From Pseudoduganella namucuonensis (GTDB lineage: Bacteria; Pseudomonadota; Gammaproteobacteria; Burkholderiales; Burkholderiaceae_D), in contig NZ_FPBO01000002.1 in the NCBI RefSeq assembly GCF_900116645.1, positions 186,001-250,000 on the forward strand: 64,000 nucleotides of DNA. The letters run 5' to 3'. This document shows positions 1 to 59,177 of this stretch, one piece after another (within the stretch, counting starts at the first letter, position 1; each line of letters begins with the position of its first letter). The position numbers and the translations under genes are program-made. A model generated the notes under the pieces. It saw only the letters and a list, made by a program, of their open reading frames with translations, made no database searches and had not been told where the DNA came from.

Positions 1-624
1 TTCTTCGAGGAGGAGGCCTTCGGTCCCGACGGCCAACTGCGGCAGGACAAGGCGTTGTCGATCAACAAGATCGGCCACGCCATGCACGACCTGGACCCGG
101 TGTTCCGCGCCTTCTCCACCGACGCGCGCCTGGCCGCCGTGGCGCTGGACCTGGGCCTGGAGCGGCCGCAGGTGTGGCAATCGATGTACATCTTCAAGCA
201 GCCCGGCATCGGCGGCGAGGTGCGCTGGCACCAGGACGCCACCTATTTCGAGACCCACCCGATCAGCGTGACCACCTTCTGGTTCGCGCTGGAGGACGCG
301 ACCCTGGAGAACGGCTGCATGTGGGCCGAGCCGGGCGGCCACCGCACGCCGCTGCGCGAGCGCTTCGTGCGCTGCGGCGACGACATCCGCGTCGAGAAGC
401 TGGACGACACGCCCTGGCCGGACGACTCCACCGCCGTGCCGCTGGAATGCAAGGCGGGCAGCCTGGTGTGCTTCCACGGCCTGCTGCCGCACTACAGCGC
501 GCCCAACCGCTCGGCCGTCTCGCGCCACGCCTACACGCTGCACGCGACCGACGCGCGCACCGAGTACTCGCCGCGCAACTGGATACAGCGCGACGCCGCC
601 TTCCCGGTGCGGGGCTTCATCTGA
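1..624 (+). CDS. PhyH-type (phytanoyl-CoA dioxygenase family) Fe(II)/2OG oxygenase, 5' end missing
   Basis: The frame is open from the first base of the window, so the true start lies upstream; 207 residues are visible. The fold signature is an HxD iron motif (VRWHQDATYF) followed about 80 residues later by a distal His in CFHGLLPHYSAPN and an Arg-containing end (NRSAVSRHAYTLH), as in the PhyH family of non-heme Fe(II)/2-oxoglutarate oxygenases. The TGA stop overlaps the ATG of the next gene (TGATG), which indicates translational coupling. The substrate cannot be told from sequence; members hydroxylate fatty acyl-CoAs, amino acids or small metabolites. Family sure, role unknown. Confidence 0.85.
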   Translation, partial: FFEEEAFGPDGQLRQDKALSINKIGHAMHDLDPVFRAFSTDARLAAVALDLGLERPQVWQSMYIFKQPGIGGEVRWHQDATYFETHPISVTTFWFALEDATLENGCMWAEPGGHRTPLRERFVRCGDDIRVEKLDDTPWPDDSTAVPLECKAGSLVCFHGLLPHYSAPNRSAVSRHAYTLHATDARTEYSPRNWIQRDAAFPVRGFI

Positions 625-19836: not shown

Positions 19837-21009
19837 TCATGGCTTGCCGCCTTTGCCGCCCGCCGGCGCGCTTTGCTCGCGCACCGACGAGGTGTCTATG
19901 CTGACCACCACCGACATGCCGGGCCGCAACCGGTGCACGTCCGGCTGGCCGGGGTCTATCTTTATCCGCACCGGAATGCGCTGCGCGATCTTCACGTAGT
20001 TGCCGGTCGCGTTGTCCGCCGGGAGCACGCTGAACTCCGATCCCGTTGCCGGCGAAATGCGCTCCACCTGCCCGGTCATGGTGGTGCCGTCCAGCGCGTC
20101 CACCTTGAAGGTCGCGCTCTGTCCCACCAGCACGCTGTTCATCTGCGTCTCCTTCAGGTTGGCGATCACCCACATGTGCCGCGGCACGAGTCCCATCAGC
20201 TGCGCGCCGCTGTTCACATAGGCGCCCTGCCGCACCGCCACCTGGCCCAACTGGCCATCGGCCGGCGCGGTGATGCGCGTGTTGTCCAAGTCCACCCTGG
20301 CGGCCTTCAGCGCCGCCTCCGCGTTCGCCACGGCCGCCTCCAGCGACAGCTTGTTGACCGTCACCGTCTGCGCCGCCTGCTTCGCGATCTCCAGGCTGGC
20401 GCGGGCCTGCGCCACGGCGGCCGCCGTCTGCGCCTTGCCGGCCTTTTGCGCGTCCTGCTCGCGCACGGACAGGGAGCCGTCCGCCACCAGCGCGTCCACC
20501 CGCGCCAGGTCCGCCACCGAGCGCAGCGACTGCGCCTCCGCGTTGGCCAGCGTGGCCCGGTTCAGCGCGATGGTCGCCTCCGCGCTGTGCCGGGACTGCT
20601 CCCAGTTCGCCAGCGCCGCCTTCTGCGCGGCCAGCTGGGCCTGCGCCTGCTCGTAGCGCTGCTGGTAGACGCGGTCGTCGATCCGCACCAGCAGGTCACC
20701 CTCGCGCACGGGCTGGAAGTCCTGCACCTTCACCTCCACCACGTAGCCCGACAGCTGCGTGCCGATCACCGTCACCTGCCCGCGCACCAGCGCGTTCTCG
20801 GTGGTGACGATGGGGGTGCTGAACGGCGGCAGGCGCCAGGCGTACAGCACCACCAGCACGCCGATCAGCGCCACCAGCAGGAAGCCGGCCCCCGCCAGCC
20901 ACTGCTGCCGGCTTTCGGGCTGCTGCGCGGCAGCCGGGGCCGGGGCCGTTGCCCCCTGTTGCGGCGGCGGTGCGGAAGGCGCCGCGTCGGGTGGAGTGGT
21001 TTTACTCAT
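19837..21009 (-). CDS. EmrA-like membrane fusion protein (HlyD family)
   Basis: 390 aa. A cytoplasmic Pro/Ala/Gln-rich N-terminus (1-35) is followed by one transmembrane helix (about 39-60, WLAGAGFLLVALIGVLVVLYAW). Then come the split lipoyl domain (VTVIGTQLSGYVVEVKVQDFQPVREGDLLVRID), a long alpha-helical coiled coil (about 110-230) and the beta domain with ITAPADGQLGQVAVRQGAYV. This is the EmrA/FarA arrangement that pairs with 14-helix MFS pumps. It overlaps the MFS gene by 4 bp (ATGA), so the two are translationally coupled. Confidence 0.92.
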   Translation of the reverse strand: MSKTTPPDAAPSAPPPQQGATAPAPAAAQQPESRQQWLAGAGFLLVALIGVLVVLYAWRLPPFSTPIVTTENALVRGQVTVIGTQLSGYVVEVKVQDFQPVREGDLLVRIDDRVYQQRYEQAQAQLAAQKAALANWEQSRHSAEATIALNRATLANAEAQSLRSVADLARVDALVADGSLSVREQDAQKAGKAQTAAAVAQARASLEIAKQAAQTVTVNKLSLEAAVANAEAALKAARVDLDNTRITAPADGQLGQVAVRQGAYVNSGAQLMGLVPRHMWVIANLKETQMNSVLVGQSATFKVDALDGTTMTGQVERISPATGSEFSVLPADNATGNYVKIAQRIPVRIKIDPGQPDVHRLRPGMSVVVSIDTSSVREQSAPAGGKGGKP

Positions 21010-22682
21010 GTCGATCCCGAATTGTCGAGGGAAACGCCGGCCATGCCGGTCTGCGCGTTTTGCGCCGTGACGGCGGGCTTGTAGGCGGTGCAGATGTTCC
21101 ACAGATGATGCACCAGCATCCAGGCGATGGTGGCCACCGCCACCACGCCTATCACCAGGAACACGTCGTTGTACGCCAGGATGTTGGCCTCCCGCGTGGC
21201 CGCCGCGCCCAGCGCCGCCACGCCCTGCGCGTTGCGTGCCGCCGGATCGCCCAGCGTGCCGGCCAGCGCCGCGCCGGCGGCCTGCACGCGCGCCGCCACC
21301 TGCGGATCGAGCAACGTCAGGTGCTCGACCAGCACGCTCGAATGATACTTCTCGCGCAAGACCTGGAAGGTGCCCACCAGCGCGGAACCGAGCAGCCCGC
21401 CCAGGTTCTGCGAAATGGTGAACATCAGCGAGAAGCTGATCAGGTTGCGCGGCGCGGCGATCACCGCGCCAAAGCCGGAAACGAAGGTGGGCCCGAGGAA
21501 GAAGGTGCCGCCGAAGGCCAGCAGGAACTGGCTGAAATACATCTGCGCCGGGCGCGTGAGGCTGGTGGCGCGGCTGTCCATGAAGGCGCCCGCCGCCATC
21601 ATCGCCAGCGCGATCATCAGCGAGGGCTGGATGCGCGCGGGCGTGATCGTCAGCGCGCTGACCACCACGCCCGCGACGCTGCCGGCCAGCGTGACCAGCC
21701 ACAGCGTCTGCATCTGGTCGTTGTTCAGCCCCAGCGCCTGCAGGAAGCCCACCGTGCCGCCGGCCTCGGACTGCACGATCCGTATCAGCAGCACGGACGC
21801 CGCCAGCCGCAGCATGTTGCCCGTGCTGAGCCAGCGCGTGTTGAGCAGCGGCGAAGCGCGGTTGTGCTCCACCAGCAGCGCCGCGGCGATCAGCACGATG
21901 GCGCCGGCCAGGCTGTAGCCCAGCCACGGCGCCTCCAGCCACCACACCACGCGGCCCAGCGCCAGCACGGCGCACAGCAGCGCCACGCCCGGCGCGAACA
22001 GCGCGAAGGTGAGGAAGTCCAGCTTCTCGAAGGCCTTCACGCGGTCGCCCGGCGGCAGCTTGAGCATCAGCACGCAGCCCAGCGCCACCAGCGCCATGCC
22101 CAGCTCGAAGAAATACAGGCCGCGCCACTCGCCTATCTCCAGCAGGTCCGACGAGAACAGGCGCGCCAGCGGCAACGCCAGCTGCGCGAAGCCCACGCCC
22201 ACCACCACGCCCTTCAGGCGGTGCCGCGCCGGGAAGGCCTGCAGCACGTAGTACAGGCCCAGCACCGTCAGCGCGGCGCCGCTCATGCCGTGCGCCGCCC
22301 GCACCGCGATGGCCGACGCCAGGCCGTGCACGAACAGGTGGGCCAGCGTGGCCACCGCGTACAGCAGCAGGAACAGCTCGGTGAACAGGCGCAGGCCGAA
22401 CTGCTGGCGGAACTTCACCAGCAGCAGGTTCATGGAGACGTTGGCCATCACGTAGGCGGCGGGCAGCCACGCGATCTCGGACGCGTACACGCCCAGCGAG
22501 CCTTGCAGGTAAGGGAGGTTGACCGTGACCAGCGCGTTGCCCAGCGCGCCGGTGATGGCGACGATGAAGCCGACGATCAGGTAGGCGAGACGGCGCCAGT
22601 CCGAGTGCAGCGGCGTGGACGGGGAGCCCGGCAGCAGCGGGCGTTCATGCGGCAGCCATGCTTGCGGTGCGTATTTGTCCAT
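21006..22682 (-). CDS. EmrB-like MFS multidrug transporter (DHA2 type)
   Basis: 558 aa with about 14 hydrophobic helices. The N-terminal half has the DHA2-type NLPYLQGSLGVYASEIAWLPAAYVMANV segment and RAAHGMSGAALTVLGLYYV in the motif-C region; ISFSLMFTISQNLGGLLGSALVGTFQ is typical of EmrB relatives. It exports hydrophobic drugs or signals by proton antiport together with the adaptor and outer-membrane factor encoded downstream. A GGAAGG ribosome site precedes the ATG. No regulator gene is attached to this operon. Confidence 0.92.
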   Translation of the reverse strand: MDKYAPQAWLPHERPLLPGSPSTPLHSDWRRLAYLIVGFIVAITGALGNALVTVNLPYLQGSLGVYASEIAWLPAAYVMANVSMNLLLVKFRQQFGLRLFTELFLLLYAVATLAHLFVHGLASAIAVRAAHGMSGAALTVLGLYYVLQAFPARHRLKGVVVGVGFAQLALPLARLFSSDLLEIGEWRGLYFFELGMALVALGCVLMLKLPPGDRVKAFEKLDFLTFALFAPGVALLCAVLALGRVVWWLEAPWLGYSLAGAIVLIAAALLVEHNRASPLLNTRWLSTGNMLRLAASVLLIRIVQSEAGGTVGFLQALGLNNDQMQTLWLVTLAGSVAGVVVSALTITPARIQPSLMIALAMMAAGAFMDSRATSLTRPAQMYFSQFLLAFGGTFFLGPTFVSGFGAVIAAPRNLISFSLMFTISQNLGGLLGSALVGTFQVLREKYHSSVLVEHLTLLDPQVAARVQAAGAALAGTLGDPAARNAQGVAALGAAATREANILAYNDVFLVIGVVAVATIAWMLVHHLWNICTAYKPAVTAQNAQTGMAGVSLDNSGST

Positions 22683-22731
22683 GCCTTCCGATCGCCGTGA
22701 GGGTCATGGCGCCAGCATAGCACTGAAGGAC

Positions 22732-22764
22732 GCCGCCGTCCCCCTTCCCAGGGGGAACGGCGGC
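22732..22764 (-). terminator. strong hairpin downstream of the catalase gene
   Basis: GCCGCCGTCCCCCT pairs with AGGGGGAACGGCGGC (one bulge) across a 4-base loop, 17 bp after the catalase stop. It has no U tract, so termination is likely but not certain; it separates the catalase transcript from the MFS operon on the same strand. Confidence 0.45.
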
Positions 22765-22781
22765 CGTCGATGCCGTCCGGC

Positions 22782-25085
22782 TTACACCGCAGGCGGGTCC
22801 GTCTCGCGGCGCCATTCGCGGTGGTTGGCGATGGCCTGTTTGAAAGCCACCAGCGCGTCCGCCAGGTCGGCGGGCTCGGTGCCCACCAGCGCCGGGTCGG
22901 GCGAGCCGTCGGGCAGCGTGGCGGGCACACCGGCCTTGGCCAGCAGCGCCGTGCCCTGGCCGACCACGAGGATGGCCTTGCAGTGGCGGTACTGCAGCCG
23001 CACGAAGTCCAGCGCGTGCGCGTCCCCGCCAAGCGCGCGGGCGGCCTGTTCGCCGTCCGGCACGGCCACGGCGTCGAACAGCACCGGCGGCGCGTTCTCC
23101 AGCGTGCGCTCCACCGGGATCGCCTCGCCCGCCGCGCCCTGCACCGCGCCCAGCGTGCCGCCGATGATGTGCGGCACGGCGCCGTCGGCCAGCAGCGAGG
23201 CCTGGATGGCGCGCACGCTGTCGCCGTCCACGCCGTTGGCCACCAGGATGGCGACCTGGCGCGTCTTGATGCCCTGCTCGCCCGGCCGCGCCATCAGCGA
23301 CAGCGGCGGCGAGGGCGGATACGCCGGCAACGGCAGCGAGGTGGCCAGCGGCTGCGGCGCCGGCACCGGCAGGCCCAGGCCCGAGGCCACCGCGTTGACC
23401 AGCGTCGCGTCCACGTTCGCCAGCATGGACAGCATGCGCTCGCGGATCGGCGGCACCATCACCTTGCTCAACTCGAAGCGGAAGCCGCCCACGATGTGGG
23501 CCTGCTCGGTCGGCGTCTGGCTTTGCCAGAACAGGCGCGCCTGCGAGTAGTGGTCGGCGAACAGTTCCGGCTTGCCGCGCACCTTGTCCTCGGTGACCTG
23601 CTGCTGGCGCACGCTGGTGAAGCCGGCCATGCCGGCCTGGAACGGGCAGCCCCCGCCCAGCGAATTAGGCTCGTACGACACCCGGCCGCGGTTCACGGCC
23701 TGGCGGTGCATGCCGTCGCGCTGGTTGTTGTGCACCGGGCAGACCGGCGAATTGATCGGGATCTCGTGGAAGTTCGGGCCGCCCAGGCGGCTGATCTGCG
23801 TGTCCACATAGGAGTGGATGCGCCCCTGCAGCAGCGGGTCGTTGGTGAAGTCGATGCCCGGCACGATGTGCGCGGTGCAGAACGCCACCTGCTCGGTCTC
23901 GGCGAAGAAGTTGTCCGGGTTGCGGTTCAGGACCATGCGGCCCACCTTGCGCAGGGGCACCAGTTCCTCCGGCACGATCTTGGTCGCGTCCAGCACGTCG
24001 AAGGGGAACTGGTTGGCCTGGTCCTCGGTGAAGATCTGCAGCGCCAGCTCGTACTCGGGGTAGTTGCCGGACTCGATGGCCTCCCACAGGTCGCGGCGGT
24101 GGAAGTCCGGGTCCGCGCCGATGATCTTCTGCGCCTCGTCCCACACCAGCGAATGGGTGCCCAGCAGCGGCAGCCAGTGGAACTTGCAGAACACCGACAC
24201 GCCCTCCGCGTTCACCAGGCGGAAGGTGTGCACGCCGAAGCCCTGCATGGTGCGGTAGCTGCGCGGGATGGCGCGGTCGGACATGGCCCACATCAGCATG
24301 TGCATGGTTTCCGGCATCAGCGAGGCGAAGTCCCAGAAGGTGTCGTGCGCGCTGGCCGCCTGCGGCATGGCGTTGTGGGGCTCGGGCTTCACGGCGTGCA
24401 CCAGGTCCGGGAACTTCATCGCGTCCTGGATGAAGAACACCGGGATGTTGTTGCCCACCAGGTCCCAGTTGCCCTCGTCCGTGTAGAACTTCACGGCGAA
24501 GCCGCGCACGTCGCGCACGGTGTCGGCCGAGCCGCGCTCGCCGGCCACGGTGGAGAAGCGCACGAACACCGGCGTGCGCTTGCCCGCCTGCGCGAACGGC
24601 GCGGCGCGCGTGACGTCGCTCAGGTCCTGGTAGGACTCGAAGTAGCCGTGCGCGGCCGAGCCGCGCGCGTGCACGATGCGCTCGGGGATGCGCTCATGGT
24701 CGAAGTGCGTGATTTTCTCGCGCAGGATGAAGTCTTCCATCAGCGTCGGGCCGCGCAGGCTGGACTTCAGCGAGTTCTGGTTGTCCCCCACCGGGACGCC
24801 CTGGTTGGTGGTCAGGCGCTGGCCGCCGGCGTCGGCGCGCACGCGGTCCAGCGAACCGTCGTTGGCGTTGACGCCCAGCGGCGGCGCGCCCGCGCCCACC
24901 TTGGGCGAGGCGTTGGTCTCGGCGGCGCTGCTGGCGGTGGCCTCGGGCGCCACGTTGCCGGCGTGCTGGCCCTCCCGAGGCGTGCGGGCGGCCTCGCCGT
25001 GTTCGCCCTCCTTGTTGGCGTTGTAGGGGAATTGCGCAGCCAGGTCGATGGCGCTGGCTGGCGCGTCTTGCTTGGTCTTGGTCAT
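22782..25085 (-). CDS. katE: large-subunit (clade 2) catalase HPII
   Basis: 767 aa, the length of HPII-type catalases. Catalytic His139 lies in [15 protein letters not shown], the Asn in [12 protein letters not shown] (about 212) and the heme-ligand Tyr426 in [19 protein letters not shown]. The N-terminal extension (1-110) is hydrophilic, and residues about 605-750 form the flavodoxin/DJ-1-like C-terminal domain ([17 protein letters not shown]) that marks the large subunit class. It dismutates hydrogen peroxide in the cytoplasm, typically in stationary phase. Genes upstream on the same strand encode small stress-type membrane proteins. Confidence 0.96.
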
Positions 25086-25112
25086 GTGTTCAGCTCCGGA
25101 GTGTTGCTTGAA

Positions 25113-25184
25113 TTAGCGAATCAGGGCAATCAGAATGATGATGGGCAGCGGCACACCGAGCATCCATAAGAGGATAGAGCGCAT
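25113..25184 (-). CDS. 23-aa hydrophobic membrane peptide
   Basis: A 24-codon frame starts at an ATG with a near-perfect AAGGAG site 7 bases upstream and ends in TAA. The peptide (MRSILLWMLGVPLPIIILIA, then LIR) is one hydrophobic helix with a Pro-containing middle and an Arg at each end, as in small stress membrane peptides. It sits 27 bp after the membrane protein gene and 27 bp before catalase, suggesting an operon of three. Function unknown; the strong ribosome site is the main reason to call it real. Confidence 0.65.
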   Translation of the reverse strand: MRSILLWMLGVPLPIIILIALIR

Positions 25185-25211
25185 GGCGGGTCTCCTTGAC
25201 GGTTGATGGAA

Positions 25212-26186
25212 TCAACGGCGCGGCGGCACGCCGTAGTCGCGCTGCTTGCCGCCGAAGGTGGCCGCCAGCGCGGCGATGAAGGCGCCCAGCAGCAGCGCGA
25301 AGAACATCCACAGCGCGGACAGCGCGCCGGCCTTGCGCGCCTTGTCGGCGGCGGCCTTGGCCGCCACCTCGGCGTCGTTGCGGGCCTTCACCAGGCTGGC
25401 GTACACGTCGTCGACGCGGCGTTCGGCGTCCGACGGTTCCAGGCCGGCGCGCTTGGAGACCAGGCGCGCCAGGTACTGGCGCTCGTCGGCCGGCAGGGCC
25501 GTGCCGGTGGCGGCGTTGTCCAGTATGCGCACCAGTTCCGAGCGCAGCGAGGCGCTGGCGGCGTCGGGCACGGGCATCGCGTCCGAGCGCAGCAGCATGT
25601 CGGCGTAATAGTCGCTGCCGGGGGCGCCCTTCAGCACGCCGGCCGCCGGGGCCTTGGGCGCCAGCGCGGCGGCCGCCTCCTGCGGCGCGGTGCCGGCCTG
25701 GCTCTTGCCGTCGCCGTTCGCCGCCGCCGTGGCGGTGGCCGCGCCGGCGCCGGCGTCGATGGCGCCGCTCAGCACGGCCCGCACGGCGCCCGCCATCAGC
25801 GCGGCCGTCAACAGGGTCGCGACCGCCCAGGCCAGCAGGCCGTGCGCGGTGTCGCGGAAATAGACCTCGTCGGCGTGCACGCCGGACCAGCGCGTGCGCA
25901 GCCGGCCGGCCATGTAGCCGCCCACGCCGGCCGACGCCAGCTCCATGAAGGAGATCCACAGAATGGTGGACTTGCCGATCGGCGCGTCGCTGTAGGACCA
26001 AGGCGACACGGCCGACAGGCCCAGGCCCACGCCCAGCACCAGCAAGATGAACGACAGCGCGGCCGCGGCGGCGGCGCCAGCAATGACAGCACTCCACGAC
26101 ACGCCCGAGTGGCTGGCGTCGGCGGCCGGGATGGCGGCGGCGGACGGCTGACCATACACGGCGGCGTGCGGACCTGGTGTATTCAT
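25212..26186 (-). CDS. multi-pass membrane protein of unknown function
   Basis: 324 aa. Hydrophobic helices are seen at about 32-58, 73-93, 115-137 and 290-312, with a long Ala-rich, charged loop (about 140-285) that contains a probable coiled coil (VYASLVKARNDAEVAAKAAADKARKAG). The first segments (SWSAVIAGAAAAAALSFILLVLGVGLGL) are common in uncharacterised proteobacterial membrane proteins. No catalytic motif. The start has GGGGAGAT upstream. It is encoded with the 23-aa peptide and catalase, which suggests an envelope-stress role; this is inference from position only. Confidence 0.75.
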   Translation of the reverse strand: MNTPGPHAAVYGQPSAAAIPAADASHSGVSWSAVIAGAAAAAALSFILLVLGVGLGLSAVSPWSYSDAPIGKSTILWISFMELASAGVGGYMAGRLRTRWSGVHADEVYFRDTAHGLLAWAVATLLTAALMAGAVRAVLSGAIDAGAGAATATAAANGDGKSQAGTAPQEAAAALAPKAPAAGVLKGAPGSDYYADMLLRSDAMPVPDAASASLRSELVRILDNAATGTALPADERQYLARLVSKRAGLEPSDAERRVDDVYASLVKARNDAEVAAKAAADKARKAGALSALWMFFALLLGAFIAALAATFGGKQRDYGVPPRR

Positions 26187-26277
26187 GAGATATCTCCCCT
26201 GTTATAGGTATGGGCGTAACGGCGCCGCCGCGATCTCCAAGGGGCGGCGCGGGCGGCACGGGTGGCGCGAATGGCGC

Positions 26278-26310
26278 GGGCGGCGCGGCAACGACTTCCC
26301 GCGCCCGCCC
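26278..26310 (-). terminator. GC-rich hairpin after the DUF883-like gene
   Basis: GGGCGGCGCGG pairs with CCGCGCCCGCCC (one bulge), 12 bp after the stop of the DUF883-like gene on the minus strand. No T run, so this is a weak terminator call. Confidence 0.3.
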
Positions 26311-26322
26311 GGGCTTATCTGC

Positions 26323-26742
26323 TTATGACTTGCGGGAGCCCAGCAGCTTGGACAGGCCATAGCCGGCGGCGACGGCGACCAGCACCGACGTCATCGGGCT
26401 GCCGCGCACATAGCCGCGGCCACTCTCGGTGAGGCGCTTGGCGGCCTCGGTCATCTGCTTGCTGCGCACGTCGAACTCCGCGCCCAGCTTGCCGGCGGTC
26501 TCGGCCACCTTGTCGGTGGCGCTGTGGGCGGCGGACGCCAGGCGGTCGGCGGTCGGCTGCACTTTCTCGGCCACCTTGTCCACCGCGGCGTGGGCCGAAG
26601 TGGCCAGGCGGTCGGCGGTCGGCTGCACCTTGTCCTTGGTGCTCTCGATGGCGCCGTGCAAATCGGCGCGGGTCTCGCGGCCGATCGAGGTGATGGTGTC
26701 GGGCTTGCCGGCGGTGCCGGTGGTGTTGGTGGTGTTTTCCAT
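26323..26742 (-). CDS. DUF883/ElaB-like stress protein with internal repeat
   Basis: 139 aa from the ATG at 26742 with GAGGA upstream. The middle part holds two copies of a 23-residue unit, VQPTADRLATSAHAAVDKVA (39-58) and VQPTADRLASAAHSATDKVA (61-80), that should form amphipathic helices. The tail YVRGSPMTSVLVAVAAGYGLSKLLGSRKS is a membrane anchor followed by basic residues, as in ElaB/YqjD (DUF883) ribosome-associated inner-membrane proteins. Membership is by overall layout and not certain. Confidence 0.7.
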   Translation of the reverse strand: MENTTNTTGTAGKPDTITSIGRETRADLHGAIESTKDKVQPTADRLATSAHAAVDKVAEKVQPTADRLASAAHSATDKVAETAGKLGAEFDVRSKQMTEAAKRLTESGRGYVRGSPMTSVLVAVAAGYGLSKLLGSRKS

Positions 26743-26871
26743 GATCGGATTCCTCAGTGAATTAATCGGGCTGCATTGCCTGAGTAAAGATAGGCCGATC
26801 ACCCGGCATGTACCGTGCGGCACCTAACAAACACGGGGAATCGTGGATGCGATATACACCTTATGCCTGAA

Positions 26872-52423: not shown

Positions 52424-52542
52424 CCCGCCGGATGCGCGCGGGCCCCCGCCGTGCGCCGGCATCCATTGTGTTGGCCAGCCCACAGACAGGTCCGCCGCGA
52501 CGGCGCATCCTGAGCGGATACTTCCGCTGCAAGGTGAACATC

Positions 52543-55302
52543 ATGTTGCCCGTCACAAACTCAACCAGTGCGGCGAGCGCATCCGCCGTCCAGCCCGTCA
52601 ATTCCACGACGGACACGGCGGCGCCCGCCGCCACCGCGGCGGCCGGCACGGCCGCCGCCTCCAAGGTCGACTTTTCCGACCTGGCGCAATTCCTGTCGTC
52701 GGTCGCGCTGAGCCGCCGGCAACTGCTGGAACTGCAGGGTTCCCTCTCCACCACACAGCCCACCGCCGCCGAGCTGGCCCTGCTGACCGAGGCGGCCGAC
52801 AATCTGGCGCTGTCGTTCAACCAGTTGCCCGCCGCGTCGGTGGACCTGATCCCGCCGCTGGCGGACCAGGACGGCGGCGGCACCCTGGCCGAGCGGCTGG
52901 CCGAGGCGCTGCGCCGCGACGGCGCCGACACCACGCCGGGCGGACCGGTGTCCTCGACCACGCTGGCCGGCCTGGGCCTGACCCTGGGCGCGCTGGCGCC
53001 CGCCTCCGGCACCGATATCCTGAACGTCGACGCCAACGTGCTGCGCGCCGCCTTCGAGCTGGACCGCGACGGCACGCTGACCCTGCTGACGCGCACCACC
53101 GACGCCTTCAACACCCTGGGCAACGCCGCCGCCCGCCAGACCAGCGCCGCCGCCGCGCTGGCCGGCGACACGCCCACACCCGCCGACCTGCTACCGGAGA
53201 CCCCGGCCTCGCAAACCCTGCTGGCCGACCTGGCGCTGCGCGACGCGCTGTCCGAATCGGCCACCACGCCCGCCGAGCTGCTGCGCCAGCAGCAACTGGC
53301 GGTCGCCCGGCAGGCCGCCGCCGAGCAGGCCGACGCCCGGCAGGAAACGCAGGCCGACCGCCTCGCCGCGGACCAGGCCGCGCGCGACCGCCAGCTCAAC
53401 ACCACGCGCGAGGAGGACCTGGCCGCGACCGCGCTGGCCGAGCGCATGGCGGCCGAGCGCCAGGCCGCCGCCGCCGGGCGGGAGGACGCCGCGCAGGACC
53501 GCGCCACGCTGGCCCAGCGCACCGAGACGCTGCGCCAGGAGCTGGACCGCGCCGCGCGCGGCGAATTGATCGAACAGGAACTCCAGTCGCGCCAGGAGGC
53601 GGCGCGGATCGCCACGGCGCAGGAATCCACGGCCACGCAAGCCGAGCTGCAGGCGCGCGCAAGGCTGCAAGCCGGCCAACAGCTCACCGCACTGGAAGAC
53701 CGGCAAACGGCGGACCGCGCCACCACCGAAACACAGCAGGCCAATCGCGCCACGGCGGACCGCGTGAACGCCGCGGCGCGCGAGGCCGTTGGCGCCGAGG
53801 CCCAGCGCACGGAAACGCAAACCGTGCAGGACCGTATCACCGCCCAGCGCCTGGAGACCGAGGCCGCCAACGCCGGACGCCGGGAGGACACGCGATTGCA
53901 AGCAACGGCCACCGCCGAGGCGCGGGACGAGGCGACGACCGCCGCGCGCACCGAAGCGCAGCGCGTGGGCGACCAGCGCCTCGACACGCAGCGGCAAACC
54001 GCAGCAACGCAAGCGAACGCCCGCGCCGACACCGACGCGCAGGCGGAACGGGTGGAAGCCGAACGCGCCGCCACCGCGCAGCGCACCGCCACGCGGGCCG
54101 GCGCCCGCGCCACCGAGGACGCCCAGGCCGACCGCCTCGCAACCGAACGCCAGGGCGCCGCCACGCAAACCGCCGCGCGCGCGGCCACCGACGCGCAATC
54201 GGATCGCGCCATGGCCGATCGCCTGGCCACCGAACGTCAAACCGCCACGGCACAAGCCAGCACGCGCGTGGCGGCCGACGCGCAGGCGGATCGGGCCGAG
54301 GCCGACCGTCTCGCGGCCGAGCGCCAGAGCGCCGCCACGCAAACCACCGCGCGCGTGGCAGGCGACGCCCAGGCAGAGCGCGTCGCCGCGGACCGCACGG
54401 CGACCGATCGTGCGGCGACCGACCGGCTGACCGCCGAGCGCCAGGCCAACGCGCCCCAGGCCGCGCGCGCCGGCGAGGCCACCCTCGCCGACGACCGGCT
54501 GGCCGCCGAGCGGCTCAACGACACGCGCCGCGACGCGGCGGCGCAAGCCGGCACCCGCACGCAGGCGGAGATCGCCGATGACCGCCGGGCCGCCGAGACG
54601 CAAGCCAGCCGCGCAGCCACCGAGCGCCTGGCCGCTGCGCGCCGGTTGAACGCCGGCCAGGTCGACAACCAGGCGGCCGCCACGCTGGCCGAGCGCCAGG
54701 CGGCCGCCACCCAGGCGCAGGACCGGTTGCAAACCACCGCCCGCACCACCGCCCAGACCGAGGCGGCGCGCGCGGACCGGCAAGCTGCCTCGCTGGCGGC
54801 GGCCAACCGCGGCGCGGCGGACCGCGCCGCCGCCGAGCGCCAGCGACTGGCCACGCCGCCCGAGACCCAGGACGCCGCCGCGACGGCTGCGGCCCAGCGC
54901 GCGGCCGACGCGCGCATCGCGGCCGAGCAGCAGGCCGCGCGCGGCCTGACGGGCCTGGAACAGAACACCGCGCGCCAGGCCGACCTGGACCGGCAGGCGC
55001 GGCTGAACGCGGACACCGCCGCCGAGGCGCAGGCCGAGGCCAATGCCAGAGCGGCCGTGCAGGCGGCGGAAACGCAACGGGCCGCGCTGGCCAGCGCGGC
55101 CAACAATCCACAGGCGCCGACGGCGGCCAATCCCGCCGTGGCGGCCGCCATCGCCGCCTACAACACGGCCAACATCGCGGCCGCCAGCGGCCGTGCGCCG
55201 GCGCCCGCGCCGCGCGCGGACCGCGTGCCACCGGCGCCGCCGGTCACGCCGGTGCAGCCGGTCGATATCGCGGGCGGCGAGACCGGCCGCACGAAGCGCT
55301 AG
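52543..55302 (+). CDS. 919-aa Ala/Arg/Gln-rich coiled-coil repeat protein, unknown
   Basis: Start at the ATG preceded by GCAAGGTGAA. Residues 1-40 are Ala/Ser/Thr-rich and disordered; 41-240 is a mixed region (KVDFSDLAQFLSSVALSRRQ); about 245-850 is a nearly unbroken helix of Ala, Arg, Gln, Glu, Asp and Thr without Lys, Cys, Trp, Phe, Tyr or His and with only three prolines. A repeat of 24-29 residues starting DAQADR or DAQAER is seen at 498, 526, 550, 579 and 608, each with an LATERQ- or LAAERQ-like block. Only two Lys occur in the whole protein (41 and 918). The end (855-919) is Pro/Ala-rich. No signal peptide. I recognise no family; a filament or surface-associated scaffold is one possibility. 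Confidence 0.75.
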   Translation: MLPVTNSTSAASASAVQPVNSTTDTAAPAATAAAGTAAASKVDFSDLAQFLSSVALSRRQLLELQGSLSTTQPTAAELALLTEAADNLALSFNQLPAASVDLIPPLADQDGGGTLAERLAEALRRDGADTTPGGPVSSTTLAGLGLTLGALAPASGTDILNVDANVLRAAFELDRDGTLTLLTRTTDAFNTLGNAAARQTSAAAALAGDTPTPADLLPETPASQTLLADLALRDALSESATTPAELLRQQQLAVARQAAAEQADARQETQADRLAADQAARDRQLNTTREEDLAATALAERMAAERQAAAAGREDAAQDRATLAQRTETLRQELDRAARGELIEQELQSRQEAARIATAQESTATQAELQARARLQAGQQLTALEDRQTADRATTETQQANRATADRVNAAAREAVGAEAQRTETQTVQDRITAQRLETEAANAGRREDTRLQATATAEARDEATTAARTEAQRVGDQRLDTQRQTAATQANARADTDAQAERVEAERAATAQRTATRAGARATEDAQADRLATERQGAATQTAARAATDAQSDRAMADRLATERQTATAQASTRVAADAQADRAEADRLAAERQSAATQTTARVAGDAQAERVAADRTATDRAATDRLTAERQANAPQAARAGEATLADDRLAAERLNDTRRDAAAQAGTRTQAEIADDRRAAETQASRAATERLAAARRLNAGQVDNQAAATLAERQAAATQAQDRLQTTARTTAQTEAARADRQAASLAAANRGAADRAAAERQRLATPPETQDAAATAAAQRAADARIAAEQQAARGLTGLEQNTARQADLDRQARLNADTAAEAQAEANARAAVQAAETQRAALASAANNPQAPTAANPAVAAAIAAYNTANIAAASGRAPAPAPRADRVPPAPPVTPVQPVDIAGGETGRTKR

Positions 55303-55492
55303 GGGCCCCAGTCCGCCCGCCCGGGTCCACCCAGGCCCGTTCCGGCCATCCCGGGCCGCGCGGGCCGAGGCTTTGCAACACAACCACGCCGGCAGAGGCG
55401 CGCGCGCAACGCCGAGGTCGCCTCCGGCGGGAGAAACAGCCCGCCGGGGCCGTTTTCTGCAATAATTCCCCGTCGATTCCTACAGGCCACGC

Positions 55493-56287
55493 ATGTCTTC
55501 AGCTGGCGATCTTGCCAAAAAACGCGCTTTCCTCCTGGGCTGCGCACTGCTCTGCGCCACCGCGCTGCCCCCGGCGCGCGCCCAAACTGCGCCGCGCACC
55601 ATCCCTCTGCTATTGGGCGACGCGCTGGACGCGAAGGGCAAGCAAAAGCCGATGCTGGCCTGGCGCCGCAAGCTGTTCGACCAACTGGAACAAGAGCTTG
55701 GCGTCACCTTCGACATCAAGGTCTACCCGTGGCCGCGCGCCGAGCGCAACGCGCGCGAGGGCGCGGGCCTGATCTTCGGCCTACCCAAGACGCCCGAGCG
55801 CGAGCGCGCGCTGCGTTATTCGGACGCCGCCGCCAGCAACACGCTGTGGCTGGTCACGCGCAGCGACGCCACCTTCCCCTTCCAGAGGCTGTACGACCTG
55901 CGCGGCAAGACGGTGGGCGCGGTGCGCGGTTACAGCTACGGCGACGAGTTCGAACGCCAGCGCAACCGCCTGTTCCGCGTGGACGAGGACATCGCCTCGC
56001 GCGCGTCCCGGCTGCAGCGCCTGTTGCTGAAGCGGGTGGACGCGGTGCTGCTGTACCAGCCCAGCTGGGAGACGGCGCCGGAGATCGAGGCCAACATCCG
56101 CGGCTTCATCGCGCCCTATGCGCGGGAACTGGGCATCCCGCCGGCCGTCAGCCTGTCGGTGCTGCCGCATCCCGTGCAGGTTGAAAACGGCCAGCACTTC
56201 GCCATCGCGCCCGGCCAGGACGACGGCTTGATAGAACGTATCAACGCGGCGCTGGCGCGCCTGCGCAAGACGGTGGCGACCCGCTAA
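55493..56287 (+). CDS. periplasmic substrate-binding-domain protein (SBP_bac_3 type)
   Basis: 264 aa with a signal peptide (about 1-30, ending PPARAQ). The mature part has the two-lobed fold of family 3 solute-binding proteins: VTFDIKVYPWPRAERNAREG, LIFGLPKTPERERALRYSD, LWLVTRSDATFPFQRLYDLRGKTVGAVRGYSYGDEF and VDAVLLYQPSW. No ABC permease or ATPase genes are adjacent, so it may be an orphan receptor or sensor. Ligand unknown; amino acid-like compounds are usual. The 190 bp before it, after the 919-aa gene, show only GC-rich DNA. Confidence 0.8.
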   Translation: MSSAGDLAKKRAFLLGCALLCATALPPARAQTAPRTIPLLLGDALDAKGKQKPMLAWRRKLFDQLEQELGVTFDIKVYPWPRAERNAREGAGLIFGLPKTPERERALRYSDAAASNTLWLVTRSDATFPFQRLYDLRGKTVGAVRGYSYGDEFERQRNRLFRVDEDIASRASRLQRLLLKRVDAVLLYQPSWETAPEIEANIRGFIAPYARELGIPPAVSLSVLPHPVQVENGQHFAIAPGQDDGLIERINAALARLRKTVATR

Positions 56288-56402
56288 AACCGAAGGAAAT
56301 GCGGAAAACGCGGTCCGGGAGAGTTTCGGCTTGCCCTGTCCCGCCGCGCGTGGGGATAATGCTCGCGCATATCGACGGCATATCGACCACAAGGAGATCA
56401 GA

Positions 56403-57533
56403 TTGAATTTGAAAGTCACCAAGGGCGCACTGGCCCTGCTGGGCGCCATCAGCGCCATCCACGGCGCGGCGGCACAGGACGTCGTCAAGATCGGCCACAG
56501 CGGCCCGCTGTCCGGCCCGCAGGCCTTCTCCGGCAAGGACAATGAAAACGGCGCGCGCCTGGCGATCGAGGAATTGAACGCCAAGCCCATCACGGTGGGC
56601 GGCAAGAAGATCAAATTCGAACTGTTGTCCGAGGACGACCAGGGCGACCCGAAGGCGGGCGTGCAGGTGGCGCAGAAGTTCATCGACGGCGGCGTGAAAT
56701 ACGTGGCCGGCCCCTACAACTCGGGCGTGGCCATCCCCGCCTCGCGCGCCTACAACGACGCCGGCGTGCTGATCGCCACCGTCGCCACCAATCCCAAGAT
56801 CACCCAGCAGGGCTACAAGGGCCTGTTCCGCGTGAACGCCAGCGACACCCAGCTCGGCTCGAAGATGGCGCTGTACGCGGCGCAGGAACTCAAGTTCAAG
56901 ACCGTGGCCGTGATCGACGACCGCACCGCCTTCGGCCAGGGCGTGGCCGAGGAGTTCAAGAAGCAGGCCAAGGCCTCCGGCATGGCGGTGGCGGGCCACG
57001 AGTTCACCAACGACAAGGCCTTCGACTTCACCGCCATCCTCACCAAGCTGAAGGCGAAGAAGGTGGAGGCCATCTTCTTCGGCGGCTACGCGCCGCAGGG
57101 CGCGCCGATGGCGCGCCAGATGAAGCAGCTGGGCATCAACGCCAAGCTGCTGGGCGGCGACACCATCTGCACCGCCGAAATGGGCAAGCTGGGCGGCGAC
57201 GCGGTGGGCGACAACGTGCTGTGCTCGCAGGGCGGCGCCATCCTGGACAAGGCCGCCGCCGGCCCGCGGTTCAAGGCCGCGTTCAAGAAGCGCTACAACC
57301 GCGACGCCGACGTCTACGCCGCCTCCTATTACGACGCGACGATGATGTACGCGCAGGCCATGCAGAAGGCCAATTCGACCGATCCGGCCAAGGTCGGCCC
57401 GGTCATCGCCGCCGGTTCCCACAAGGGCGTGGCGGGCACCTACGCCTTCGACGCCAAGGGCGACATGAAGGAGTCGCCGGTCACCATCTTCACCTTCAAG
57501 AACGGCGCGCCCGCGCCATTGACCAGCTACTGA
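56403..57533 (+). CDS. branched-chain amino acid ABC transporter binding protein (LivJ type)
   Basis: 376 aa from a TTG codon with AAGGAG five bases upstream, the best start by ribosome site; it opens a signal peptide (about 1-25, ending HGAAAQ). The mature protein is a family-1 periplasmic binding protein: VVKIGHSGPLSGPQAFSGKDNENGARLAIEELN, LLSEDDQGDPKAGVQVAQKF, VKYVAGPYNSGVAIPAS, TVAVIDDRTAFGQGVAEEFKKQ and DVYAASYYDATMMYAQAM. It would bind Leu/Ile/Val or related compounds. The permease and ATPase genes are not nearby. Confidence 0.9.
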   Translation: MNLKVTKGALALLGAISAIHGAAAQDVVKIGHSGPLSGPQAFSGKDNENGARLAIEELNAKPITVGGKKIKFELLSEDDQGDPKAGVQVAQKFIDGGVKYVAGPYNSGVAIPASRAYNDAGVLIATVATNPKITQQGYKGLFRVNASDTQLGSKMALYAAQELKFKTVAVIDDRTAFGQGVAEEFKKQAKASGMAVAGHEFTNDKAFDFTAILTKLKAKKVEAIFFGGYAPQGAPMARQMKQLGINAKLLGGDTICTAEMGKLGGDAVGDNVLCSQGGAILDKAAAGPRFKAAFKKRYNRDADVYAASYYDATMMYAQAMQKANSTDPAKVGPVIAAGSHKGVAGTYAFDAKGDMKESPVTIFTFKNGAPAPLTSY

Positions 57534-58337: not shown

Positions 58338-58478
58338 GCGTAAAAGTCTAAAACAGCGGCTTCGACACTGGCGCAAGATACACCTGGGCAAGGAAAGTTT
58401 TGTCGAAAAATCTTACACCCGGCGGCGCCAAGGGACCCGATCGGCGCTAAATCATTGAATCTAGGTAAGTTATTTTTC

Positions 58479-58494
58479 TGGCATGCAACTTGCT
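58479..58494 (+). promoter_or_regulatory. sigma-54 (RpoN) promoter of the second PEP-CTERM gene
   Basis: TGGCATGCAACTTGCT matches the RpoN consensus TGGCAnnnnnnTTGCT with GG-N10-GC spacing. The start would be near 58505, leaving a 25-base leader before the ATG at 58530. The first PEP-CTERM gene in the window has the same arrangement. Confidence 0.72.
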
Positions 58495-58529
58495 TGCATC
58501 ATGGCATACACTTCGACCATGGAATCATC

Positions 58530-59177
58530 ATGCGCATCCCGCCACTCAAAGCCATCGCCGCCGCCCTGTTCACCTGCTGCGCCGCCACCGCCGGCGCCGC
58601 CCCCATCACGTTCGACGGCCTGGCCGGCAGCGACATGGCCAACCAGGACTTCCAGTACACCGGCGCTTTCAGCGGGTTCAACGGCGGCGGCGTCGCCACG
58701 GTGCAGGACTATACGTTCACGGCCGCGGACACCATGTATTTCATTGGCCCCGGCTACACCGGCCACTACCAGGACGCGGGCAATCCATACAACGGCACCG
58801 ACTATCTGATGGGCACGGCCTTCACCTTGCGCAGCGCGAGCTCGGCCCCCTTCTCGCTGAACGGCCTGGACCTTGGCGTATGGAGTGACTTCTCCAGCGC
58901 CAGCCTGACGCTCACCGGCACCTACGCCGGCGGCGGCACCTTCAGCAGCACCCTCGACCTGAGCAGCATGAACAGCCTCACCTTCGACGACGGCGACTTC
59001 ACGCACTTCGCGCCGTCGCAGTTTAGCAACCTGGCGTCGCTGCAGTTCAGTTCCAACGCCATGTTCACGCTCGACAACCTCGACGTCGGCCCGAGCGCCG
59101 TGCCCGAGCCCGCCACCCTGGCGCTGATGGGCCTGGGCTTGGCCGGCATCGCGGCGGCCCGCCGCCGCCGCAAGTAA
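58530..59177 (+). CDS. PEP-CTERM sorting domain secreted protein
   Basis: 215 aa from the ATG at 58530 (an earlier frame from 58455 would include the promoter). Signal peptide about 1-23 (MRIPPLKAIAAALFTCCAATAGA). The C-terminus is a textbook PEP-CTERM signal: SAVPEPATLALMGLGLAGIAAARRRRK. The mature domain is Gly/Ser/Thr-rich with aromatic residues (DTMYFIGPGYTGHYQDAGNPYNG), probably a beta sandwich. Exported and anchored or released by exosortase, likely in the exopolysaccharide matrix. Confidence 0.92.
   Translation: MRIPPLKAIAAALFTCCAATAGAAPITFDGLAGSDMANQDFQYTGAFSGFNGGGVATVQDYTFTAADTMYFIGPGYTGHYQDAGNPYNGTDYLMGTAFTLRSASSAPFSLNGLDLGVWSDFSSASLTLTGTYAGGGTFSSTLDLSSMNSLTFDDGDFTHFAPSQFSNLASLQFSSNAMFTLDNLDVGPSAVPEPATLALMGLGLAGIAAARRRRK

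Follow-up and report, generated by a model that had tools for sequence, protein, structure and literature searches.

What might a protein of 919 residues with just two lysines (positions 41 and 918) do, and to what is it related? The question is raised by a plus-strand open reading frame (ORF) in a 64,000-nucleotide stretch of DNA from the soil bacterium Pseudoduganella namucuonensis (contig NZ_FPBO01000002.1, positions 186,001 to 250,000; this whole stretch is called the window, and positions are counted from its first base). The initial annotation had described the product as a coiled-coil filament, spacer or scaffold of no known family. The underlying observation was confirmed, in that 52543-55302 translates without a stop into 919 amino acids (aa). 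Judged from its sequence, the protein is a member of a family and not an orphan. The firm part of our account is that residues ~43-207 are very probably kin to domain D1 of the flagellar cap protein FliD. The wider proposal, that the protein is a headless relative of the flagellar cap, exported and used for tethering, is tentative and falls somewhat short of probable. The architecture comprises a D1 module in which a loop of about 8 residues takes the place of the head, a lysine-free spacer of about 600 residues and a conserved C-terminal helix, laid out as follows.

52543..55302, + strand: coding sequence for 919 aa, from translation, codon scores and a nonsynonymous rate (dN) below the synonymous rate (dS) among close family relatives.
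52543..52677, + strand: residues 1-45, a Ser/Thr/Ala/Pro-rich N-terminus, unstructured in the model (predicted local-distance difference test score, pLDDT, ~40); the family start is M(F/L)P(I/V)(S/T).
52678..53163, + strand: residues 46-207, a bundle resembling FliD D1 that includes a beta hairpin but lacks the D2-D3 head, from model, fold and profiles.
53275..55092, + strand: residues 245-850, a helical spacer without lysine, built of Ala, Arg, Gln and acidic residues, whose charges form a ladder of period 4.8, from composition, periodicity and model.
55129..55299, + strand: residues 863-919, a conserved C-terminal tail (C-tail) with the short helix NPAVAAAIAAYN and then a Pro/Val-rich end, from alignment and model.

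Searches with the window protein as a single sequence against Pfam, NCBIfam, PDB sequences and plasmids gave no match, a pattern scan of the genome contigs with residues 1-245 found nothing, and no paper on this protein turned up in the literature searches; a PHROGs tape-measure match at E 0.15 was disregarded. When residues 1-245 were compared with 148 related genomes, 51 of them matched at E <= 0.01 (own genome included), five relatives showing 52-58% identity and the others 29-39%. The resulting alignment has 47 rows, made up of ORFs from 46 relatives and the window protein; genomes G025 and G040 were left out because no ORF matched there. A second alignment holds the 38 full-length proteins (window included) and omits nine short or contig-cut members. 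Weak genome matches in G108 (cysteine-synthase-like by eye), G103 and G082 and an additional ORF in L080 were discarded as false. A profile built from the 47 sequences matched 68 of 295 genomes at E <= 0.001, namely 55 of the 74 from its own genus (own genome included) and 13 outside it, the latter being other Burkholderiales genomes with more distant members; the ten named loci matched by the N-terminal domain of a member were all from Duganella. Across the alignments, a conserved N-domain is followed by a variable middle and a conserved C-tail.

As described in passages of PMC7316729, the two termini of FliD form the D0 coiled coil, and D1 is a bundle of four helices to which the D2-D3 head is joined. 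AlphaFold2, run on the 47-row alignment (mean pLDDT 71, blocks up to 95), modelled the N-domain with helices at 46-66, 75-93, 115-128, 138-143, 164-173 and 175-207 and a hairpin at 146-150/158-162; the D2-D3 head is absent, an eight-residue loop joining helices 46-66 and 75-93. When this model was compared with known structures by VIA-align, the eight best chains all came from flagellar-cap or filament-assembly entries (Z 12.2-9.7), five of whose titles name FliD and three of which leave the chain's protein unstated. The best match, 5h5v_C (E. coli FliD; Z 12.2, root-mean-square deviation 3.2, 138 aligned, 22% identity), covers both halves of D1 (chain 48..411). Next in rank were the type III secretion tip protein SipD (9.3), a further cap complex (9.2) and, at 8.9 or lower, designed bundles.

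Sequence profiles point to the same domain. FliD_C was matched by 14 of the 47 members at E <= 1 (best 3.9e-8). Among ten members chosen for Pfam comparison, it was found in five, two of which exceed the cut-off of 25.4 (25.9 and 29.1 bits), while L078 and L035 gave no match; two distant members without the Duganella-type spacer came near the cut-off, at 23.6 and 18.8 bits. Conversely, the family hidden Markov model (HMM) matched two true FliDs, L092 and L093, at 1.1e-8 and 1.2e-7; Pfam finds FliD_N as well as FliD_C in both, and they belong to different species of a single other genus. It also matched L094 at 2.1e-6, a protein of 337 aa in which FliD_C scores 44 bits and FliD_N is absent. An hhalign comparison of the family with seven FliDs, from which the D2-D3 head had been excised, gave 1.4e-9; the 131 aligned columns start at the first D1 helix and extend past the hairpin. 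Three of the seven came from the family search (L092 and L093 found through the family, L096 a weak match of the same search that is FliD by Pfam); the four FliDs not found through the family gave 1e-5, and the window's own subclade (6 rows) gave 6.4e-5 against FliD D1. Controls gave 0.062 for D2-D3, 0.19 for a reversed profile and 0.40-0.98 for five column shuffles. Comparisons with single FliDs were weaker (E. coli 1.4e-4, own L082 2.7e-4, own L083 0.0093), and four matches of the family profile to PDB sequences (E 0.058-0.46, none of them FliD) were taken as chance. The statement that no known family was visible thus holds for the single sequence and fails for the family, in which residues 43-207 match FliD D1 by profile and fold. 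A named family for residues 41-240 had been set down as the finding that would count against the annotation, and this result in effect amounts to it.

With FliD/HAP2 (FliD_C, PF07195) the family shares the D1 bundle, the hairpin motif 'L..iGi....G.L.lD...L..Af' and the '(V)xAFNxL' helix, colinear over ~130 columns. It differs in that no D2-D3, D0 or FliD_N is recognised, in that its locus is non-flagellar and in that its C-terminal helix is replaced by a spacer (from almost nil to ~615 residues) and a new conserved tail. FliD_N (PF02465), present in the FliDs L092, L093 and L096, was matched neither by the window protein nor by the ten chosen members. As to D0, residues 1-45 are helix-free in the model, at low confidence, and the C-terminus consists of the spacer and a short tail. 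By membership, the protein is not a FliD, because the head, FliD_N, the FliD_C cut-off and a flagellar locus all fail; it would work like a spacer.

Loci L096:9715-11142 (FliD_N and FliD_C) and L094:9439-10452 (FliD_C only) look like orphan FliD relatives, because their flanking genes appear, by eye, to be non-flagellar.

As first reported, residues 245-850 contain no Lys, Cys, Trp, Phe, Tyr or His, and Pro is restricted to 638 and 772-773. Repeats reported to begin with DAQADR or DAQAER at 498, 526, 550, 579 and 608 were found at all five sites, the one at 550 reading DAQSDR instead; repeats of 24/29 residues lie around residues 498-636. In the AlphaFold2 model of the full protein (mean pLDDT 68.6, modest), helices span 270-412, 463-625, 645-769, 772-853 and 864-873. 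About 513 spacer residues are predicted helical, and gaps at 413-462 and 626-644 break up what had been called an almost unbroken helix. Arg, acidic and aliphatic residues of the spacer share a period of 4.80 residues, the power reaching 25.4 for Arg, 21.4 for acids and 14.7 for Leu, Ile, Val and Met (LIVM), whereas the highest values among 1000 shuffles were 12.4, 13.6 and 13.6. Neither a heptad nor a hendecad repeat gave a signal, power at 3.4-3.75 residues being at most 4.6 in four residue classes (2.4 for LIVM). An acid stands at +4 from Arg 30 times (13.5 expected) and at -1 of Arg 35 times (13.4 expected), whereas Arg at +4 from an acid is depleted (6 vs 13.5 expected); ~30% of spacer residues are charged. 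With 3.6 residues to the helical turn, a 4.8-residue step would correspond to 120 degrees and leave no hydrophobic face, a pattern expected of a single helix rather than a bundle.

The ladder characterises one section of the family, while Ala-richness and lack of lysine are general. Among 15 Arg-rich members (window included), an Arg period of 4.6-5.05 (p <= 0.01) occurs in 11 and an acidic period in 5; the figures for all 38 members are 12 and 6. Near-absence of lysine is a family trait: Lys makes up 0.11% of the 38 proteins vs 3.24% across all 527 proteins predicted from neighbouring genes (the median is 2.86% for the 493 that exceed 150 aa), 21 of the 38 being free of it and the maximum being 5. 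Likewise, Phe, Trp, Tyr, His and Cys together account for 1.3% vs 9.6% in the neighbours. In L062:7816-10506 (- strand), the spacer is largely a near-perfect array of 30-residue units, each of six pentads (TAEQR LADQQ ADEQR VTEQR TADQR LTAQR). A pentapeptide-repeat beta helix (PF00805) was considered for the window protein and dropped, with no Pfam match anywhere in it.

Among the 38 full-length proteins, the middle ranges from 162 to 615 residues, and between related proteins as many as 128 residues are gained or lost in a single in-frame block, block alignment being uncertain where repeats abound. In the 14 closest pairs, several of which share members, dN is below dS in the N-terminal, middle and C-terminal parts alike (ratios ~0.05-0.41). 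For L039/L038, dN/dS values are 0.031/0.38, 0.034/0.54 (ratio ~0.06) and 0.017/0.20, respectively; between the window protein and its nearest relatives (51-58% identity in the N-domain), spacer dN is 0.53-0.62 and dS 0.93-1.46, a distance too great for a precise ratio. Spacer length thus drifts in frame, while aligned residues are under purifying selection in close relatives. The proposed spacer role stands on these grounds, the middle being mostly helical by prediction and varying in length, in frame, between conserved ends; this suggests a type of spacer, not described before, that makes use of a flagellar component.

The C-tail motif was found in 37 of the 38 full-length proteins and is clear in six of eight distant relatives. 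P864, A867, I870, A871, A872 and V901 are invariant in 38 rows, and AlphaFold2 places a helix at 864-873. A search of the own genome for a wider family sharing the C-tail returned this protein alone (next match 0.17). In two natural members, one from L067 and one from L054, the tail follows the N-domain almost directly.

Two short members lie in tandem at L067:8747-10367 (ORFs of 271 and 246 aa), the second consisting of N-domain and C-tail virtually without spacer. Distant members with a similar N-domain occur in other genera (L087:9349-10215, L088:8876-10222, L091:8416-10167 and L090:8976-10121); their spacers are Ser/Thr/Val-rich or missing, and their neighbouring genes are, by eye, non-flagellar.

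Conserved reading of another frame had also been named as evidence that would speak against the annotation; codon scores and dN/dS favour the annotated frame. Codon scores are above 0 in this frame in 9 of 9 scoring windows of 300 nt and negative in the other two plus-strand frames, one antisense frame being weakly positive in 5 of 9; GC at codon positions 1/2/3 is 0.79/0.61/0.90. The start at 52543 was preferred over the in-frame ATG at 52432, as AAGGTG lies six bases 5' of it and the relatives' starts coincide; in the alignment, the relatives' N-termini, M(F/L)P(I/V)(S/T) or similar, fall at the matching place.

52531..52536, + strand: ribosome-binding site AAGGTG, from sequence, its position matched in the five closest relatives.

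Three known systems besides FliD invite comparison. TolA domain II and other single alpha-helices form long, charged, Ala-rich helices. The family shares with them this composition, the pairing of Arg with an acid at i+4 and a presumed action as stiff spacer, but has Arg in place of Lys, a period of 4.8-5, ~30% charged residues and no transmembrane anchor. Passages of PMC5347031 set out rules for such helices. The length rulers of the FliK/YscP type (Flg_hook, PF02120) likewise have conserved ends and a spacer of drifting length. Flg_hook was matched weakly by 17 of the 47 members (best 2.8e-4); it is absent from the window protein, and the four chosen members that match it stay below the cut-off (best 20.3 vs 29.8 bits). 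These four matches fall on the D1 segment, and no C-terminal switch domain is recognised. Lastly, the type III secretion tip proteins IpaD/SipD have a similar bundle topology, but the Z of SipD (9.3) is below that of FliD (12.2) and no sequence match to them was found.

These features can be combined as follows. The spacer would fold into helical rods, for the most part monomeric and stabilised by pairing of Arg(i) with acid(i+4), ~90 nm long for 606 residues if fully helical. The D1 module may dock on a D1-bearing flagellar-type partner while the C-tail binds something else, which would make the protein a tether that is stiff and adjustable in length. Like FliD, it probably passes out of the cell in unfolded form by way of the flagellar type III export gate. 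A broader version of this idea, which we regard as rather unlikely, sees in headless cap proteins a class of rods, so far undescribed, that are exported by the flagellar system and anchored to the growing or finished filament by a D1 module lacking head and D0. In such a class the lysine-free helix with its 4.8-5-residue salt-bridge ladder would hold the C-terminal helix tens of nm off and could serve as tether, adhesin stalk or ruler, its length being adjusted as repeat units are added or lost; the class would span Duganella and, with different spacers, several Burkholderiales families.

The genes around the family were tallied for the window and 45 loci (46 rows), six of which have no downstream genes because the contig ends there. 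Upstream and divergent lie genes for catalase (31 rows), a YtxH/apolipoprotein-like protein (19), a major facilitator superfamily (MFS) transporter (40) and two further efflux proteins that look, by eye, like HlyD and TolC types (37 each). Two binding-protein genes follow downstream in the same direction as the 919-aa gene. In the window, homologues of the catalase, YtxH/apolipoprotein-like and MFS block are found at 21006-26823, 26-31 kb upstream, and the part from 26.8 to 52.4 kb, with the xylose/xylan genes, therefore separates the block from the gene; in four of the five closest relatives, too, the retrieved sequence shows no such block next to the gene.

55422..55449, + strand: terminator-like hairpin 5' of the next gene; three such hairpins occur in the region vs 3.0 expected by chance.
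55493..56287, + strand: SBP_bac_3-like protein, conserved downstream neighbour, in 18 of 46 rows (Pfam 25.1 vs cut-off 26.4 bits).
56331..57533, + strand: Peripla_BP_6 (LivK-type) binding protein, conserved downstream neighbour, in 36 of 46 rows (Pfam).

The product of 58455-59177 ends in VPEPATLALMGLGLAGIAAARRRRK, presumably a PEP-CTERM-type sorting tail.

Upstream of the gene, a bipartite element is conserved.

52481..52511, + strand: bipartite element CACAGACAGG-N-GCGCATCCT, promoter-like, conserved in relatives.

Its family form is CACACGGAC-N-GCATGCT or CACA(C)GGAC-N-GCATGCT. The element lies 60-82 bases upstream in 37 of 45 upstream regions (window included), and its pattern, defined after seeing the sequences, gives 49 matches in all, those 37 included, in 1.96 Mb of both-strand sequence. 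The subclade form has one site in the own genome, and therefore no regulon was seen. In the 45 upstream regions, a sigma-70 pattern gave no match and a sigma-54 pattern was found in four, at scattered positions; judged by pattern, the element is neither a sigma-28 nor a sigma-54 site.

FliF was used as a marker for flagella. It was found in 73 of the 74 genus genomes, the one without it also lacking the family, and in all 55 genus carriers as well as in 13 of 13 carriers outside the genus, where some of the 13 matches to the family profile are FliDs themselves; none of the 20 FliF-negative genomes is among the listed carriers. Two or three FliF-type matches occur in 69 of the 74 genus genomes, which suggests a second flagellar or injectisome set.

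A number of results weigh against the proposal of a headless, exported cap relative. Foldseek alone gave no significant match, its best being IpaD at E 0.02, and a Z near 12 can arise by chance for helical models. Neither the window protein nor its subclade relative L061 has a FliD_C match of its own. The score against the four independent FliDs is carried by the C-terminal part of D1 (5e-6 alone); the first D1 helix alone gives 0.13, and placing it before or after the C-terminal part gives 1e-5 both ways, so that what would assign this helix to D1 is the model and colinearity. No D0 helix is recognised at the N-terminus, and other axial proteins use D0. As to the gene, the one sigma-28 pattern tried had no match in the 45 upstream regions, and no flagellar genes were recognised near the family, its neighbours being binding proteins, catalase and an efflux pump; in 28 hand-picked genomes the best fliF among the matches listed is 235-336 kb off on the same contig, although a second fliF copy could be nearer. 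The association with FliF is weak, because 53 of the 72 non-genus genomes examined have FliF and carriers are related; 18 flagellated genus genomes lack the family. Finally, Arg-rich designed single helices aggregated, according to passages of PMC5347031.

A rival explanation is a cytosolic scaffold, in which a FliD fragment has come off the flagellum, its D1 has become an ordinary protein-binding bundle and the rod separates two cytoplasmic or inner-membrane partners, perhaps tied to the surrounding stress and transport genes. The stable non-flagellar neighbourhood (catalase, YtxH/apolipoprotein-like protein, MFS pump and two binding proteins), the unrecognised D0, the lack of a signal peptide by eye and the gene's own upstream element all favour such a scaffold. 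The N-terminus, however, is modelled as disordered and is alike at its start in most members. Alike N-terminal starts are typical of export signals. The scarcity of Phe, Trp, Tyr, His and Cys would also be unusual for a cytosolic protein, and every carrier examined has FliF; we regard the scaffold as possible but doubtful. Export by an injectisome, of a tip- or effector-like protein whose lysine-free sequence escapes ubiquitin in a eukaryotic host, would agree with the likeness to SipD and IpaD, with family-wide lysine depletion and with the multiple FliF-type matches. Both VIA-align and sequence comparison nevertheless favour FliD, no type III secretion genes were recognised nearby, Arg is retained and no host is known, which makes this explanation very unlikely.

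The long parallel coiled-coil filament of the initial annotation, for which the predicted helicity of the spacer and its richness in Ala and charge can be cited, is improbable: neither LIVM nor LIVMA (LIVM with Ala) has a period of 3.5 or 3.67 residues, and the sole strong period, 4.8, with 120 degrees per step, would leave no hydrophobic seam. A low-complexity relic without function might account for a middle so variable in length and composition, but in the 14 closest pairs each of the three parts has a dN lower than its dS, and both ends are conserved across genera; this explanation is disfavoured and can be given next to no weight.

With the kinship to D1, an uncharacterised Burkholderiales family gains a domain assignment. 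The spacer, as a natural Arg-based and almost lysine-free long helix with a 4.8-5-residue ladder, would be useful for learning what stabilises long single helices. If the proposal of a headless cap relative is true, the FliD D1 bundle can leave the cap and join a rod of freely evolving length, and the role of a flagellar part encoded outside the flagellar operon would become a testable question.

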